Below, one piece after another: positions 2 through 7,838 of a stretch of 64,000 nt of DNA; the first letter of the stretch is position 1, and each line of letters opens with the position of its first letter. The position numbers and the translations under genes were made by a program. Source of the DNA: Falsiroseomonas tokyonensis (GTDB taxonomy: Bacteria > Pseudomonadota > Alphaproteobacteria > Acetobacterales > Acetobacteraceae). The stretch lies in contig NZ_JAFNJS010000010.1 of NCBI RefSeq assembly GCF_019024325.1, forward strand, positions 1-64,000, in the 5' to 3' direction. The notes beneath the pieces are model-generated. The model was not told the DNA's origin. It did no database searches and saw only the letters and a list, made by a program, of their open reading frames with translations.

Positions 2-412
2 CGATGCCTGCTCTCATCCCAAGAGCTTGAACCAGCCTACCCGTTCAGGGAATCCTCTGAATGGGGCAGTCCACTAGCGGATGCAGAAATGAGCTTCGAT
101 TTCTGGGGATCGCGCTGGGTCGTCGTTGTACGTGTCGCAGACGCCGATGCTCAGAGTGACTGGTTGGACGTAGGCGACGTCGAGACATCTGCGGCGACGG
201 GCGTGCGGCGCATTGAGATCCGGGTCGCCGGCGTGCACCCGTTCATGACTCGCTTCGCGCACCGAGACCCGGAGGTGATGCAGGCCCTGGTGCGGGTCGC
301 TGCTGCGATGGCTCTGTCGGAGGCGCTGTTGCGCAGCGCGGGCGGGGCAAACCCCGGAGCGATCCGGCGAACCACCAACGACCTTCTGCGCGACGTCTTC
401 TCGACGACTTGA
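2..412 (+). CDS. C-terminal part of a larger protein, probably GHKL/MutL-like ATPase of a Z1-type defence island (partial)
   Basis: The frame is open from the first bases of the window to the TGA at 410-412, so the gene starts left of the window; the ATG at 89 is probably internal. The visible end (136 residues) reads as the tail of a multi-domain protein: a stretch containing EPAYPFRE and WGSPLAD, a beta-rich segment (FWGSRWVVVVRV), HPFMTRFAH, then a helical end. No catalytic motif lies in this part. The TGA overlaps the TTG of the Z1 gene. In related islands the gene before the Z1 gene usually encodes a GHKL (MutL/Hsp90-type) ATPase, and the HPF-plus-helices tail fits my memory of that family. 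The identity is inference from context and tail; the partial status is seen directly. Confidence 0.6.
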   Translation, partial: RCLLSSQELEPAYPFRESSEWGSPLADAEMSFDFWGSRWVVVVRVADADAQSDWLDVGDVETSAATGVRRIEIRVAGVHPFMTRFAHRDPEVMQALVRVAAAMALSEALLRSAGGANPGAIRRTTNDLLRDVFSTT

Positions 413-2736
413 GGCGAGCAGCCGTGCCGGATGAACAGCCCATAGCAACGGTAACACCCATGCCGGACTTCGCCGAAGACCCCGAGGACATGCGTTGGTC
501 GCCGCAACCAGGATCGGAGGCGGAAGGCCTGCTGGCCCACAAGCTCGGCGACAAACCGCCGGAAGCGCGGCTGCAGGTCCTTGCGTCGGCCAGATCCATT
601 CTCGGCAAGGGGGTACCACCGGGCGAGGGCGGAACCGAGACCGGCCTCGTGGTGGGCTATGTGCAGAGCGGCAAGACTCTCTCGTTCATGTCCGTGATGG
701 CCCTCGCGCGCGACAACGGCTTCCCGCTCATCATCTTGATTGCAGGGTCCTCGACTCAGCTGTCGGACCAGTCCTTCAAGCGCCTTCGCGACGATCTTCG
801 TATCAGCGTCAACGGTCGCCGGCCCTGGGCGCTTTACCCAAATCCGCGGGCTGCAGAGGCTGACGGGATCGCCGGCATGCTGGATCAGTGGCGCGATCCG
901 AACGTGCCGCCGAACCAGCGCAAGACAGTCGTGCTAGCGGTGATGAAGCAGTTCGCGAACCTGCGGCACCTCGCACGGCTGCTTCAGCAGCTCTCCCTGC
1001 AAGATATACCAACGCTGATCATCGACGATGAAGCCGACCAGGCGAGCTTGAACACCATGGCGCAGCAAGCAGCGCGCCTCCAGCAGAACCGGATGAGCAC
1101 GACCTATCGGCGCATCCTAGAGATCCGACAGGCCGTAGGCTCCCACACATTTCTCCAATACACCGCGACGCCGCAAGCTCCGCTTCTGATCAGCATCATC
1201 GACACGCTGTCGCCGAACTGGGTAGAGGTGCTGGAGCCGGGCGGCGGCTACACTGGCGGGCAGACCTTCTTCCCGCCGCCACCGCCGCGACAGGCGCCGC
1301 CAACGCCGCAGCAGCTCGTGCGGCTGATACCTGCGGCTGAGATCCCGGCGGCGGGCAACCAGCCACAGGCGGCTCCACAGACGCTCCAGTTCGCGCTCCG
1401 CCTGTTTATGGTTGGCGTCGCCGCAGCCTTCGTGCTCGACCAGGACGGCAATCGCTCGATGCTGGTCCATCCGTCGGTTCGAACGGCAGATCACCAAATG
1501 TACGTGAATTGGATCCGCGACCTGTTCCATGGCTGGCAGGCTACTTTCAGGCGCGGCGACGCGGACCCTATCGCCCAGGCTCTGGCTGAGGAGTTCCGGC
1601 CTGCTTACGACGATCTGGCAGCATCGGTCGGTGAGACCATGCCGACCTTCGATGCGATCAAGAGCCGCTTTCGGCAAGCGTTCAATGAAACCGAGATTAA
1701 GGAGGTAAACCGCCGAGTTGGCGGTCCCCCAGTTATCATTGAGTGGGGACAGCGCACGGGTTGGATCCTGGTGGGCGGCTTGGCGATGGACCGCGGCTTC
1801 ACCGTCGAGGGCCTGACCGTCACCTATATGCCGAGGAGCCTTGGCGGCGGCAACGCGGATAGCCTGCAACAGCGCGCTCGCTTCTTCGGCTACAAGGGCC
1901 GCTATCTTGGTTTCTGCAGAGTTTTCCTGCCACGCGACGTGAAGCGAGCCTTCGAGGATTACGTCCTGCACGAGGAAGCAATGCGGCGCGACCTGGTAGA
2001 GGTTCAACAGGCCAGGCAGCCGCTTGATACGTGGCCGCGGCGCTTCGTGCTCAGCCCAGCCCTGAAGCCCTGCCGCGACAACGTTTTGGAGCACGGCTAT
2101 ATGCGTGCGCCGGCCGTTCCGGACGACTGGTTCTTGGCGCAGGCGTACCTCGGGCGTGGTGGGTTCGAGGAGCACAACAGAGGGATCATTGCGCGCTTTG
2201 TCACGGGGCACGCATTCCGCCCGGACGATGGTCACCCCGATCGAACTGTGTACCAGCGTCACGAGATCACGGACTTGCTTCCGCTGCGCGACGTGATTGA
2301 GACACTGCTTGTCGACTACCGTCTCCGCGATCCGGGCGAGGCAGAACGCTGGGGCCTGTTGCTCGCCCAACTCGGCCGTATGCTGGACGAAGATTCCAAC
2401 GCTCGCGCCGTTGTCTACCGAATGAGTCCCGCCGAAGCGCGCAAGCGCGCCATCTATGACACTGGCCGACTCAAGTATCTCTACCAAGGCGAGTACCCGG
2501 TTAACCCGCCAGATCGTCGGGGGACGATCTACCGGGGTGACAAGAGCATGTTCATCGAGGGCGTGGTCACCGTTCAAATCCACGAGTTGGATCTGACGCT
2601 GCGCGCTGAGGGCGGAGCGCCCGTCGCGTCCAACGTGCCGTTCCTCGCATTGCGTCTGCCGGCGGGGCAGGCTCAGCCGATGGTCTTCCAAACGCAACCC
2701 AACCAGCCGGTGCTCGGCCAAGAGGGTGAGGGGTGA
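409..2736 (+). CDS. Z1 domain-containing superfamily II-like ATPase/helicase of a predicted defence system
   Basis: A 775-residue protein with helicase-like motifs: a Walker A-like GYVQSGKT at residues 83-90, a Walker B/DEAD-like IDDEAD at 205-210, a motif III-like YTATP at 251-255, and a motif VI-like QQRARFFGYK from 487. This layout is typical of the Z1 domain (PF10593), found in predicted restriction-like islands beside GHKL ATPases and PD-(D/E)XK nucleases. A role in nucleic-acid translocation or remodelling is inferred. The frame can start at TTG 409 (overlapping the previous stop) or at GTG 424, which has AGGCGA eight bases upstream and may be the real start. The 3' end overlaps the next gene by four bases. 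Base composition is visibly less GC-rich than genes right of 4 kb, a sign of transfer. Confidence 0.85.
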   Translation: MRRAAVPDEQPIATVTPMPDFAEDPEDMRWSPQPGSEAEGLLAHKLGDKPPEARLQVLASARSILGKGVPPGEGGTETGLVVGYVQSGKTLSFMSVMALARDNGFPLIILIAGSSTQLSDQSFKRLRDDLRISVNGRRPWALYPNPRAAEADGIAGMLDQWRDPNVPPNQRKTVVLAVMKQFANLRHLARLLQQLSLQDIPTLIIDDEADQASLNTMAQQAARLQQNRMSTTYRRILEIRQAVGSHTFLQYTATPQAPLLISIIDTLSPNWVEVLEPGGGYTGGQTFFPPPPPRQAPPTPQQLVRLIPAAEIPAAGNQPQAAPQTLQFALRLFMVGVAAAFVLDQDGNRSMLVHPSVRTADHQMYVNWIRDLFHGWQATFRRGDADPIAQALAEEFRPAYDDLAASVGETMPTFDAIKSRFRQAFNETEIKEVNRRVGGPPVIIEWGQRTGWILVGGLAMDRGFTVEGLTVTYMPRSLGGGNADSLQQRARFFGYKGRYLGFCRVFLPRDVKRAFEDYVLHEEAMRRDLVEVQQARQPLDTWPRRFVLSPALKPCRDNVLEHGYMRAPAVPDDWFLAQAYLGRGGFEEHNRGIIARFVTGHAFRPDDGHPDRTVYQRHEITDLLPLRDVIETLLVDYRLRDPGEAERWGLLLAQLGRMLDEDSNARAVVYRMSPAEARKRAIYDTGRLKYLYQGEYPVNPPDRRGTIYRGDKSMFIEGVVTVQIHELDLTLRAEGGAPVASNVPFLALRLPAGQAQPMVFQTQPNQPVLGQEGEG

Positions 2737-3719
2737 ACGCGGCCGAACTGCGCCGTCTCTTCCAGCGCCTTGCGGGCAACGCCGCGCCCGCAGAAGGCAC
2801 GTTCGCTGCGCTGGAGGTGCCCGGCTCGGGTGGCCACATGGCTTTCCTCTCGGCGACCGGTACGCCCGGCTTACTGTTGAGTACGTCCGGCGATGGGCCG
2901 CGCCCGCCTCGTATCCGGCTGTCTGGCCTAGACGCGATGTTCGGTGTGCCATGCGCTGTATCGGTTGCTGGGGGCGTGCCCGAGGAGCGGCGCATGACCG
3001 TGCTTTCATGCACGGCGGGCGCTGATGTCAGGCCGCTGTTCGCTGAGTTCGGCGGCACGTTTCTGCGTCTGGTCGGACCTTTGCCGACGATGGAGCAAGC
3101 TTCGTTAGCTGTCGCGCGTTTTGCAGCGCTCCTGTCGTCCTTGACCCGCCCCTCGCGCCAGAGCGTCACGGGGCTGATCGGAGAGTTGATGGTCTTGCTG
3201 CTCGCCGCGGACCCGGCGACCGCGATCGCTTGCTGGCGGCGCTCGGCGGGCGACAAGTTCGACTTTGTCGCGCCGGATGCCAGGGTAGAATGCAAGGCGG
3301 CCTCGCCCGGGCTCCGGATTCACTCGTTCTCTTGGGAGCAGTGCAATCCTCCGGTTGGCCCTGCACTCGTCGCCTCGCTGTTCGTCGAGGCAACCGGTGG
3401 CGGCACCACGGTGCGCGAACTCCTCGATCGGATCGAGGCACGCCTTTCGGCAGTGCCGGAGGCGGCCGTGAAGCTGCGCGAGACGGTCGCGTCAACAATG
3501 GGGGCCGCGTTGCCGGAAACACTGGACGCAACGTTCGACGAGGCCACCTGCCGGGCAAGCTTGAGGTGGTTCGATCTCCGGCACGTGCCAGCCATTCGAG
3601 GCGACTTGCCGTCGGGTGTAGGAAGCGTGCGGTTCAGTTCTGACCTGACCCTGGTTGCACCGGTAGCGCCAGCGTTAGCGCACACCGGGCTGCAAGGGCT
3701 GCTTCCGGTCGCACACTGA
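2733..3719 (+). CDS. PD-(D/E)XK motif nuclease-family protein (DUF4420-like), partner of the Z1 protein
   Basis: A 328-residue protein starting at GTG 2733, which overlaps the Z1 stop (GTGA), so translation is probably coupled. The nuclease-like core is GELMVLL near residue 150, then DKFDF (D174, D177) and VECK (E186, K188), a good match to the D...ExK pattern of the PD-(D/E)XK fold. It fits the DUF4420 family (PF14390) seen next to Z1 genes. The rest of the chain has no motif I recognise. The role as the DNA-cutting component is inferred from the fold and context; cutting specificity cannot be read. A perfect hairpin follows 26 bases after the stop, so the operon probably ends here. Confidence 0.8.
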   Translation: MNAAELRRLFQRLAGNAAPAEGTFAALEVPGSGGHMAFLSATGTPGLLLSTSGDGPRPPRIRLSGLDAMFGVPCAVSVAGGVPEERRMTVLSCTAGADVRPLFAEFGGTFLRLVGPLPTMEQASLAVARFAALLSSLTRPSRQSVTGLIGELMVLLLAADPATAIACWRRSAGDKFDFVAPDARVECKAASPGLRIHSFSWEQCNPPVGPALVASLFVEATGGGTTVRELLDRIEARLSAVPEAAVKLRETVASTMGAALPETLDATFDEATCRASLRWFDLRHVPAIRGDLPSGVGSVRFSSDLTLVAPVAPALAHTGLQGLLPVAH

Positions 3720-3762: not shown

Positions 3763-3987
3763 TAACTCCGCCGCACTTGTGGCGCGGGAAAATAAGGACT
3801 TCCTGGGGCGTTCAGCTCGGCTGGTTGATCGTCCAAGTCGCCAGGTTCGGAGAAATTGGGGCCGAAGAGAGGGACCTCACCGCCTTTTCCCGGGCGCGCA
3901 ACCACCAACCTGTCCCCGAGAACCCCGCGGAACCGGCGGTTCCCGGCGGGCCTACCCCGGGGAGAGACAGGTAGCGAAGTGCGGAAG
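3763..3987. other. Non-coding junction between defence island and tRNA-Arg
   Basis: I see no convincing gene. The segment lies just past the CCA end of the tRNA. It holds a small hairpin (GGAACC, loop GGC, GGTTCC, 3929-3943) that could end the tRNA transcript. Just after it is TTCCCGGCGGG, which resembles the T-arm end of the tRNA (TCCCCGGCGGG on the same strand), a possible decayed attachment-site remnant. No integrase is present here. Confidence 0.4.
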
Positions 3988-4064
3988 TGGCGTCCCCGGC
4001 GGGATTCGAACCCACGGCCCCCAGATTAGGAATCTGGTGCTCTATCCGGCTGAGCTACGGAGAC
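3988..4064 (-). tRNA. tRNA-Arg (anticodon CCT)
   Basis: The reverse complement folds as a complete 77-nt tRNA. The acceptor GTCTCCG pairs with CGGGGAC (one G-T wobble), the D-stem is GCTC/GAGC, and the anticodon stem CCAGA/TCTGG encloses TTCCTAA with anticodon CCT. The variable region has 5 nt, the T-arm is GTGGG-TTCGAAT-CCCGC, the discriminator is G, and CCA is encoded. The 3' end faces the defence island, the usual polarity for integration into a tRNA gene. Confidence 0.96.
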
Positions 4065-4347: not shown

Positions 4348-5738
4348 GTGGCATGGGCGAACTCCCTCTCGGCCTGGCCGAGGCCGCCCGGCTGATCGCG
4401 GCGAAGCAGCTTTCCCCGGTCGAACTGGCCGAATGTGCCCTGACCCGGGCCGAGGCCCGGAATCCGGAGCTGCACGCCTTCATCCGCCTGACCCCCGACC
4501 TCGCCTTGTCCCAGGCCCGGGCGGCGGAGGCGCGGCAGATGTCCGGCGCGCTGAAGGGTCCGCTGGACGGCATCCCGATCGGCCACAAGGACATCTTTGA
4601 GACCGCCGGCATCCCGACGACCGGGCATTCGCGCATCCTCGCGGACCATGTGCCGGCCAAGGATGCGGCGGTGGTCCGCGCCTGGGCGGAGGCCGGGGCG
4701 GTCACCATCGGCAAGACCGCGACGCATGAATTCGCCTGGGGCGGCCCCTCCTTCGACCTGCCCTGGCCGCCCGCCCGCAATCCCTGGGACACGACGCGCT
4801 TCACCGGCGGGTCCTCCACCGGCGCCGGCGCGGCCGTTGCGGCCGGGCTGGTGCTGGGCGCCACGGGCAGCGACACCGGCGGCTCCATTCGCGGCCCCGC
4901 CGGGCTCTGTGGCCTGGCCGGCATCAAGCCGACCTATGGCCTGTGTTCCCGCAGCGGCGTGCTGCCGCTGGCGCATAGTCTGGACACCACCGGCCCCATC
5001 GCCTGGACGGTGGAGGATTGCGCCCTGCTGCTGCAGGCCATGGCCGGGCATGACCCGGAGGATCCCTCCTCCGCCGACCGCCCGGTGCCGGACCTAATCT
5101 CCGGCCTCGGCGGCGGCGTGCGCGGCCTGCGCATCGGCCTCATCCGCCACTTTCATGAGTCCGACCTGGTCGCCAGCCCCGCCGTCCGCGCCGGCGTCGA
5201 CCATATGGCGGCGGTGCTGCGCGCCGAGGGCGCCATCCTGTCGGAGGTCACGCTGCCGCCGCTGCTGGATTTCCACGCCGCCGGCTGGCTGATCCTGATG
5301 TCGGAGGCGCATGCGGTGCACGAGCCCTGGCTGCGCACCCGCTTCCACGACTATGGCGAGATCCTGCGGGAAAGGTTGGCGCTCGCCACTCTGGTCTCGG
5401 CGGCGGACTACCTGCAGGCGCAGCGCCAGCGCCGCCGGCTCTGCCAGCAGGTTGCCGCGGCGATGGAAGGGGTGGACCTGCTGCTGACCGCGGCGCAGCC
5501 GACGGAGGCGCTGCCGATCGATCGCGTCAGCAAATTCGCCAGCCTGGAATCGCCCGGCCTCACCATCCCCTTCAACCTGACGGGCCAGCCGGCGCTGGCG
5601 GTCTGCACCGGCTTCGGGGAGGGTGGTCTGCCCGTCGGCGCCCAGCTCATCGGCCGACCCTTTGAGGACGCCACGGTGCTGCGCGCCGGTCATGCCTTCG
5701 AGCGTGCGACCGCCTGGCGGGCGCGGCGGGCCGCGTAG
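4344..5738 (+). CDS. AtzE-like amidase signature hydrolase
   Basis: A 464-residue amidase-signature enzyme. The Ser-cisSer-Lys triad is visible: K82 in GHKD, cis-Ser about S157 in GGSSTGAG, and nucleophile S181 in SDTGGSIR, followed by AGIKPTYG. Start ATG 4344 overlaps the stop of the AtzG-like gene; the frame stays open upstream but has no reason to start there. With the AtzG-like partner, the closest named family is AtzE (carboxybiuret hydrolase). The rest of the cyanurate pathway is not here, so the true substrate (a ureido or amide compound) is open. It ends three bases from the convergent efflux operon. Confidence 0.8.
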   Translation: MSGMGELPLGLAEAARLIAAKQLSPVELAECALTRAEARNPELHAFIRLTPDLALSQARAAEARQMSGALKGPLDGIPIGHKDIFETAGIPTTGHSRILADHVPAKDAAVVRAWAEAGAVTIGKTATHEFAWGGPSFDLPWPPARNPWDTTRFTGGSSTGAGAAVAAGLVLGATGSDTGGSIRGPAGLCGLAGIKPTYGLCSRSGVLPLAHSLDTTGPIAWTVEDCALLLQAMAGHDPEDPSSADRPVPDLISGLGGGVRGLRIGLIRHFHESDLVASPAVRAGVDHMAAVLRAEGAILSEVTLPPLLDFHAAGWLILMSEAHAVHEPWLRTRFHDYGEILRERLALATLVSAADYLQAQRQRRRLCQQVAAAMEGVDLLLTAAQPTEALPIDRVSKFASLESPGLTIPFNLTGQPALAVCTGFGEGGLPVGAQLIGRPFEDATVLRAGHAFERATAWRARRAA

Positions 5739-5741
5739 CCT

Positions 5742-7838
5742 TCAGGGCAGCACCAGGTCCCCCGGCGCCAGCCCCTCCCGGATCTCGACGCCGCCGGGGG
5801 TGCTGATGCCGAGGGTGACGGGCACCACCTCCTCCCGCCCGCCGCGGCGCACCCGGACGGCGCGGCCCCCGGGCCCGCCCTGGATGGCGTGCGGCGGCAG
5901 CACCAGCGCATCCGGCTTCTCGTAGATGATGATGGACAGGCTGGCGGACATGCCGACGGCCAGCATCCGCCGCTGCTCTGGCGACAGCCCCTCCACCGCC
6001 ACGGAGATGGGGAAGCTCGGCATGCCGCTGCGGCTGCTGGCCTCGCTGCCGGCCTGGGCGGCCACGCTGGTGACGCGGCCTTCCAGCACCAGGTCACCGA
6101 AGGCGTCGCCCGTCACCGTCACCTTCTGGCCGATGCGCAGCTTGTTCACGTCAATCTCGTCCACCGTGGCACGCACCTGGAAGGTCTCCAGCGCGCCCAG
6201 GGTGAACATGGTCTGGCCACGCTGCACGCGCGATCCGGGCTCGATGGTCTCGGCGCGGCGGCCGCCGGGGCCTTCGGGCGGCATCAGCACCACGCCCGCC
6301 ACCGGGGCCAGCACGGTGGCATTGGCGAGATCCGCCTCCAGCTCCCGCACCTTCACCTCGGCATTGGCGAGCTCGAGCTCCGCGATGCGCAGCGTCTGCG
6401 CGTCGCCGCGCGCCAGCGTCGCCTCCAGGTCGTTCTCCGCCGCCTGCACCTGCAGCTGCTGGTTCCGCTGCTGCTGCACCAGGGCGCGATGCTCATCCGC
6501 CGCGATGATGCCGCGCGAGAGCAGCATGCGCGTCTGCGCCACGCGCGCGGTGATGTCGGACAGCTCCAGACGCGCCTGGGCCAGGGCGCGGCGGGCGCGC
6601 GCCACCTCGAAGCCGGTGGCCCAGCCGCGCAGCTCCGCCACGCGCTGCCGGGCGCGGATTTCCGCGCTGCGCGCATCGCGCAGGCGCACCTCGACATCGT
6701 TCAGGTCGAGCCGCAGCAGCGGCTGGCCGCGTTCCACCTGGCTGCCGTATTGGAACAGCCTTTCCTGCACCAGCCCGTCGAAGGGGCCGACGACGCTGAC
6801 CAGCGACCCTGCATCCAGCATGCCCACCACCGCGATGCGGGAGGAGATGGGCTGCGGCGTCAGCGTGATCGGCGGCATTCCGCCGGCATTCGCCTCCGGC
6901 GCGCCGCTCCAGCCCGTGGGCAGCGGCAGCCAGGCATAGGCGCCGGTGGCCAGCAGCAGCAGCGCCACGCCGGCCGCCCCGCCCAGGCGCGCCAGGCGCA
7001 TGCGGCGGGCCTGGGCCTGGTCGCGGATCGCGCCCTGCTCCAGCTGCAGATAGGCGGTCTGCAGCTTGCGGTGCTGCTCGGCCAGGTCGCGGCTCAGCGC
7101 CGCCTCCGCCGCCGCCAGGCGCTCCGCCTCCGTCACATCGGTCAGGGAGGCGGTCAGGCCGAGGCGCCCGGCTTCGGGGCCCACGCGCAAGCGATAGGCG
7201 CGGCTGCTGACAGCCAGGCGCCGCCCGTCGAAATCCACCACCAGGCGCGGCGGTGGCGCCGCCGCGCCGATCGGTTCCAGCAGCGCATCCAGCAGCGCAT
7301 CGGCGCGGCCATCCTGCGGCAGCAGCGCGGCCAGCGTGGCGCCGGGGGCGGTGGCCGGATCCAGGCCCAGCATGGCGGCCGCCGCGCTGTTCAGCGTGAT
7401 GACGGCGCCATCGCTGCCCAGCGTCAGCACGCCATCGGCCAGCCCGTCCAGCGCCGCGCCGAAGCCCAGCTGCAGGCGATCATGGCTTTCGCGCAGCGCG
7501 AGCTCCGCCGCGGCGCGCGCCGCCAGCAGCAGCAGCCCCTCCCGCTTCGCCGGCGCCAGGTCGCGCGGCGCGGCATCCTGCACGCAGAGCACGCCCCGCG
7601 CCTGGCCCCGCACATCCCGCAGCGGCGCGCCTGCGAAGAATCCGCCGCCTTCGGCAAGCTGCGGCAGCACCAGCAGGCCCGGCGCGGCCATCGTCTCGGC
7701 CCATGCCTCGGCCAGGGCCGGCTCGGCCGGCGGTTGCACGAAAATCCGCCCGCTGGCGCAGCCGGTCAGCGTGGCGGCCAGGCGCGCGATGTCGTCGAGC
7801 GCGGCAGGCGCCTCGGCAGGCAGGGCTCCGCCCATCAC
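5742..7838 (-). CDS. Periplasmic adaptor (HlyD/MacA type) fused to N-terminal GAF-like and PAS domains
   Basis: A 698-residue fusion. Residues about 10-115 look like a GAF domain (GRIFVQ, ARGVLCVQDA, then a helix). About 120-236 look like a PAS domain (DGLADGVLTLGSDGAVITLN, closing in LTASLTDVTEAE). A coiled coil runs to 278 and one membrane helix lies at about 285-305. The rest is a classical adaptor: lipoyl halves (VVGPFDGLVQERL, and ATVLAPVAGVV), an alpha-hairpin of about 125 residues, then beta-barrel and membrane-proximal domains. The sensor part should be cytoplasmic and the adaptor periplasmic. GTG 7838 overlaps the TolC-like stop (GTGA); an ATG follows directly. It would link the ABC pump to the outer-membrane channel; the sensor may gate it (inference). 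Confidence 0.85.
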   Translation of the reverse strand: MMGGALPAEAPAALDDIARLAATLTGCASGRIFVQPPAEPALAEAWAETMAAPGLLVLPQLAEGGGFFAGAPLRDVRGQARGVLCVQDAAPRDLAPAKREGLLLLAARAAAELALRESHDRLQLGFGAALDGLADGVLTLGSDGAVITLNSAAAAMLGLDPATAPGATLAALLPQDGRADALLDALLEPIGAAAPPPRLVVDFDGRRLAVSSRAYRLRVGPEAGRLGLTASLTDVTEAERLAAAEAALSRDLAEQHRKLQTAYLQLEQGAIRDQAQARRMRLARLGGAAGVALLLLATGAYAWLPLPTGWSGAPEANAGGMPPITLTPQPISSRIAVVGMLDAGSLVSVVGPFDGLVQERLFQYGSQVERGQPLLRLDLNDVEVRLRDARSAEIRARQRVAELRGWATGFEVARARRALAQARLELSDITARVAQTRMLLSRGIIAADEHRALVQQQRNQQLQVQAAENDLEATLARGDAQTLRIAELELANAEVKVRELEADLANATVLAPVAGVVLMPPEGPGGRRAETIEPGSRVQRGQTMFTLGALETFQVRATVDEIDVNKLRIGQKVTVTGDAFGDLVLEGRVTSVAAQAGSEASSRSGMPSFPISVAVEGLSPEQRRMLAVGMSASLSIIIYEKPDALVLPPHAIQGGPGGRAVRVRRGGREEVVPVTLGISTPGGVEIREGLAPGDLVLP

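Follow-up and report, generated by a model that had tools for sequence, protein, structure and literature searches.

The start of the window, a 64,000-nucleotide stretch of the Falsiroseomonas tokyonensis genome, holds half of a DNA-defence system composed of a methylase, a MORC ATPase, a motor and a nuclease, and our analyses support a system of the restriction-modification type. Its MORC component is related to human chromatin proteins, and the system is probably carried by a phage. The original prediction, made from the letters alone, had described the gene cluster, which we confirmed, and had read it as a restriction-type anti-phage system, which our results also favor. The type of system is not new, as it was predicted before; the present copy is marked by an insertion sequence (IS) that interrupts the MORC gene and by a neighboring prophage integrase. 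The contig that starts with the window is called C2, and C11, C12, C13, C16, C58 and C59 are other contigs of the same genome (G000). Relatives were surveyed at 92 loci, which comprise 80 genome loci and also include viral contigs. The features at the start of the window are as follows.

1 to 73, no strand: end of the IS, from copies at other contig starts
74 to 412, plus strand: 3′ part of the gene for a MORC-type GHKL ATPase, encoding just its C-terminal domain, from 56% identity to residues 405 to 516 of an intact Methylobacterium protein (locus L069)
409 to 2736, plus strand: motor gene containing both Walker motifs
655 to 678, plus strand: Walker A motif GYVQSGKT of the motor, G83 to T90 invariant in a four-sequence alignment
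1024 to 1038, plus strand: Walker B motif DDEAD of the motor, with D206, D207, E208 and D210 invariant in four sequences
1384 to 2019, plus strand: motor region with the motif DSLQQRARFFG, which is Iyer's Z1-motor signature DThhQXuRhFG with S replacing T
2733 to 3719, plus strand: DUF4420 PD-(D/E)XK nuclease of 328 residues, matching PF14390 (E = 3e-21)
3183 to 3296, plus strand: putative catalytic core, from conservation, with E151 (3183 to 3185), D177 (3261 to 3263) and E186-x-K188 (3288 to 3296)
3988 to 4064, minus strand: tRNA-Arg(CCT), found by ARAGORN, its 3′ end facing the operon

The partial GHKL-like ATPase proposed upstream of the motor proved to be the 3′ part of a gene whose 5′ part lies on C11. 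That piece aligns with residues 2 to 387 of the L069 protein at 63% identity, and a genome search at E ≤ 0.001 matched the GHKL gene to these two pieces only. C11 and C2 do not overlap, but they continue in frame within the GHKL gene. The first 73 bases of C2 recur at the starts of C59 and, 2 bases shorter, C16, while at the other IS end the first bases of C11 recur at the starts of C12 and C13, shifted inward by one base. CTAG is present at all six contig-IS junctions. C12 and C59 likewise continue in frame within one gene split by the same IS, presumably an asparagine-synthase gene. The pairing of the IS ends is therefore consistent, because both pairs read through in frame; by elimination, a third copy is placed between C13 and C16. 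From the transposase C terminus and the CTAG target we take the element to belong to the IS630 family; an NCBIfam scan of 24 IS-end residues gave no match. In a relative on a viral contig (L149), a transposase gene with an rve domain (5264 to 6091) lies between the methylase and MORC genes, a second case of an IS within such operons.

In the model of the L069 protein, residues 391 to 395 have a predicted local distance difference test (pLDDT) score below 50 and residues 404 to 414 form the next strand. As this low-scoring segment lies between the regions matched by the two pieces, the transposon split the gene between domains. The insertion in an interdomain linker, together with the open reading frames downstream of it in the window, would suit a MORC protein that still functions, with a 419-residue ATPase piece and a C-terminal domain started at the ATG at 89 reassembling so that restriction persists. 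We consider this unlikely: an upstream IS is, on general knowledge, likely to be polar on the motor and nuclease genes, and a GHKL frame of at least 490 residues is kept in 86 of the 92 relatives. The six exceptions include L073, L086 and L133, each truncated by a contig end or near one, and L104 and L159, whose frames are shorter.

The motif used to unite MORC proteins (Iyer et al. 2008) was found in all 86 full-length GHKL partners, compared with 5 of 652 other open reading frames of 300 residues or more; the C11 piece bears it as GFALFRRNRLI. The L069 model (mean pLDDT, 86.8) has mouse MORC3 as its best structural match (3.5e-14), followed by MORC4 and MORC2. Hsp90-type proteins score nearly as well, close behind, so the fold supports a MORC assignment without proving it alone. 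Prokaryotic MORCs have been proposed as the source of the eukaryotic MORC chromatin ATPases (Iyer 2008).

The assignments of the motor as a Z1-type ATPase (PF10593, 9e-35) and of its partner as a DUF4420 nuclease both held. The D[ST] form of the motor signature fits 69 of 92 relatives. The nuclease model has a mean pLDDT of 94.7; a Foldseek search of the PDB gave no match at E ≤ 0.001 and leaves the PD-(D/E)XK fold unconfirmed by this method. E151, D177 and K188 are conserved in 78 of 78 sequences, 61 of which have E at position 186 and 17 D. E186 and K188, as first proposed, belong to the putative catalytic core, in which the aspartate is D177 rather than D174.

The suggestion that a methylase may lie to the left was borne out: a Pfam scan of C11, the contig with the 5′ GHKL piece, identified a methylase (PF00145, 5e-62) and a Vsr protein (3e-25). 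Of the genes sought in that direction only AIPR, present in some operons of the previously predicted type, was not found; it is absent after the nuclease, where tRNA-Arg follows, and among the 13 C11 proteins scanned, C11 having more open reading frames. One of the 92 relatives has it. Vsr adjoins the operon and occurs in 18 of the 92 relatives, and MutL works with Vsr in Escherichia coli (Iyer 2008), as might be expected of a repair or DNA-maintenance operon with a MutL-like ATPase. We regard such a role as very improbable, since defence is a better fit to an operon with its own methylase, motor and nuclease whose relatives are spread over many phyla, with some intermixing of phyla in their tree, and occur on viral contigs too.

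MZA (mzaABCDE; Gao et al. 2020), compared through portions of PMC9523054 and the PADLOC and NCBIfam models, shares domain types with the operon. MzaC matched the window motor (1e-16 and 1.5e-23), MzaB weakly matched the GHKL protein of relative G056 (0.0017), and an iteratively widened profile seeded with an MzaB-like protein of C58, which also has the MORC motif, recovered the GHKL gene at 90 of the 92 loci. Nevertheless, the motor scored 82.8 bits against the curated MzaC cut-off of 1500, and the PADLOC MzaB and MzaD models matched neither the C11 GHKL protein (E ≤ 0.01) nor the window nuclease (E ≤ 1). In contrast, C58 proteins of the same genome matched PADLOC MZA models at 4e-144 and 2e-24. 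The AIPR gene of MZA (mzaE) is the one not found above. That the system is MZA or part of it, already disfavored, is extremely improbable. The putative defence system of the 2022 natural language processing study differs in that its description (PMC9523054) leaves MORC unnamed for type I and makes no mention of prophages. CglI and NgoAVII, in excerpts of PMC4267653 and PMC5737866, are three-gene systems with a PLD-B3 rather than a PD-(D/E)XK nuclease and no MORC, while the partner of the present motor is DUF4420. VcSduA, a Shedu protein with a GHKL domain, resembles the operon in that a GHKL ATPase is thought to control a PD-(D/E)XK nuclease, but it is a single DUF4263 protein for which the excerpted text (PMC12137116) names no motor or methylase.

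The operon adjoins an integrase here and in five viral contigs, a repeated position that suggests who benefits from it. It could accordingly be mainly a prophage addiction cassette, in which prophage loss would remove the methylase while the nuclease stays. This is quite improbable, as relatives of the integrase found here are rare across the 80 genome loci (best, 50% identity over 90 residues), which argues that the operon is independent of the integrase. A restriction-modification system, probably carried by a phage, is the reading that we retain. Similarity to three congeners starts at 3987-3988, at the edge of tRNA-Arg(CCT), which is likely the integration site. To the left of this tRNA gene the content differs among G231, G685 (tyrosine integrase, methylase, SNF2 gene) and G195 (serine integrase); it looks like an integration hot spot within the genus.

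In searches of an open-access library we noticed no paper testing a prokaryotic MORC in a restriction-operon setting. With its compact four-gene organization, wide spread and intact relatives, this operon makes that role testable. Relatives L116 and L140 have near-identical motors and nucleases and different methylases, a natural experiment on which protein determines sequence specificity.
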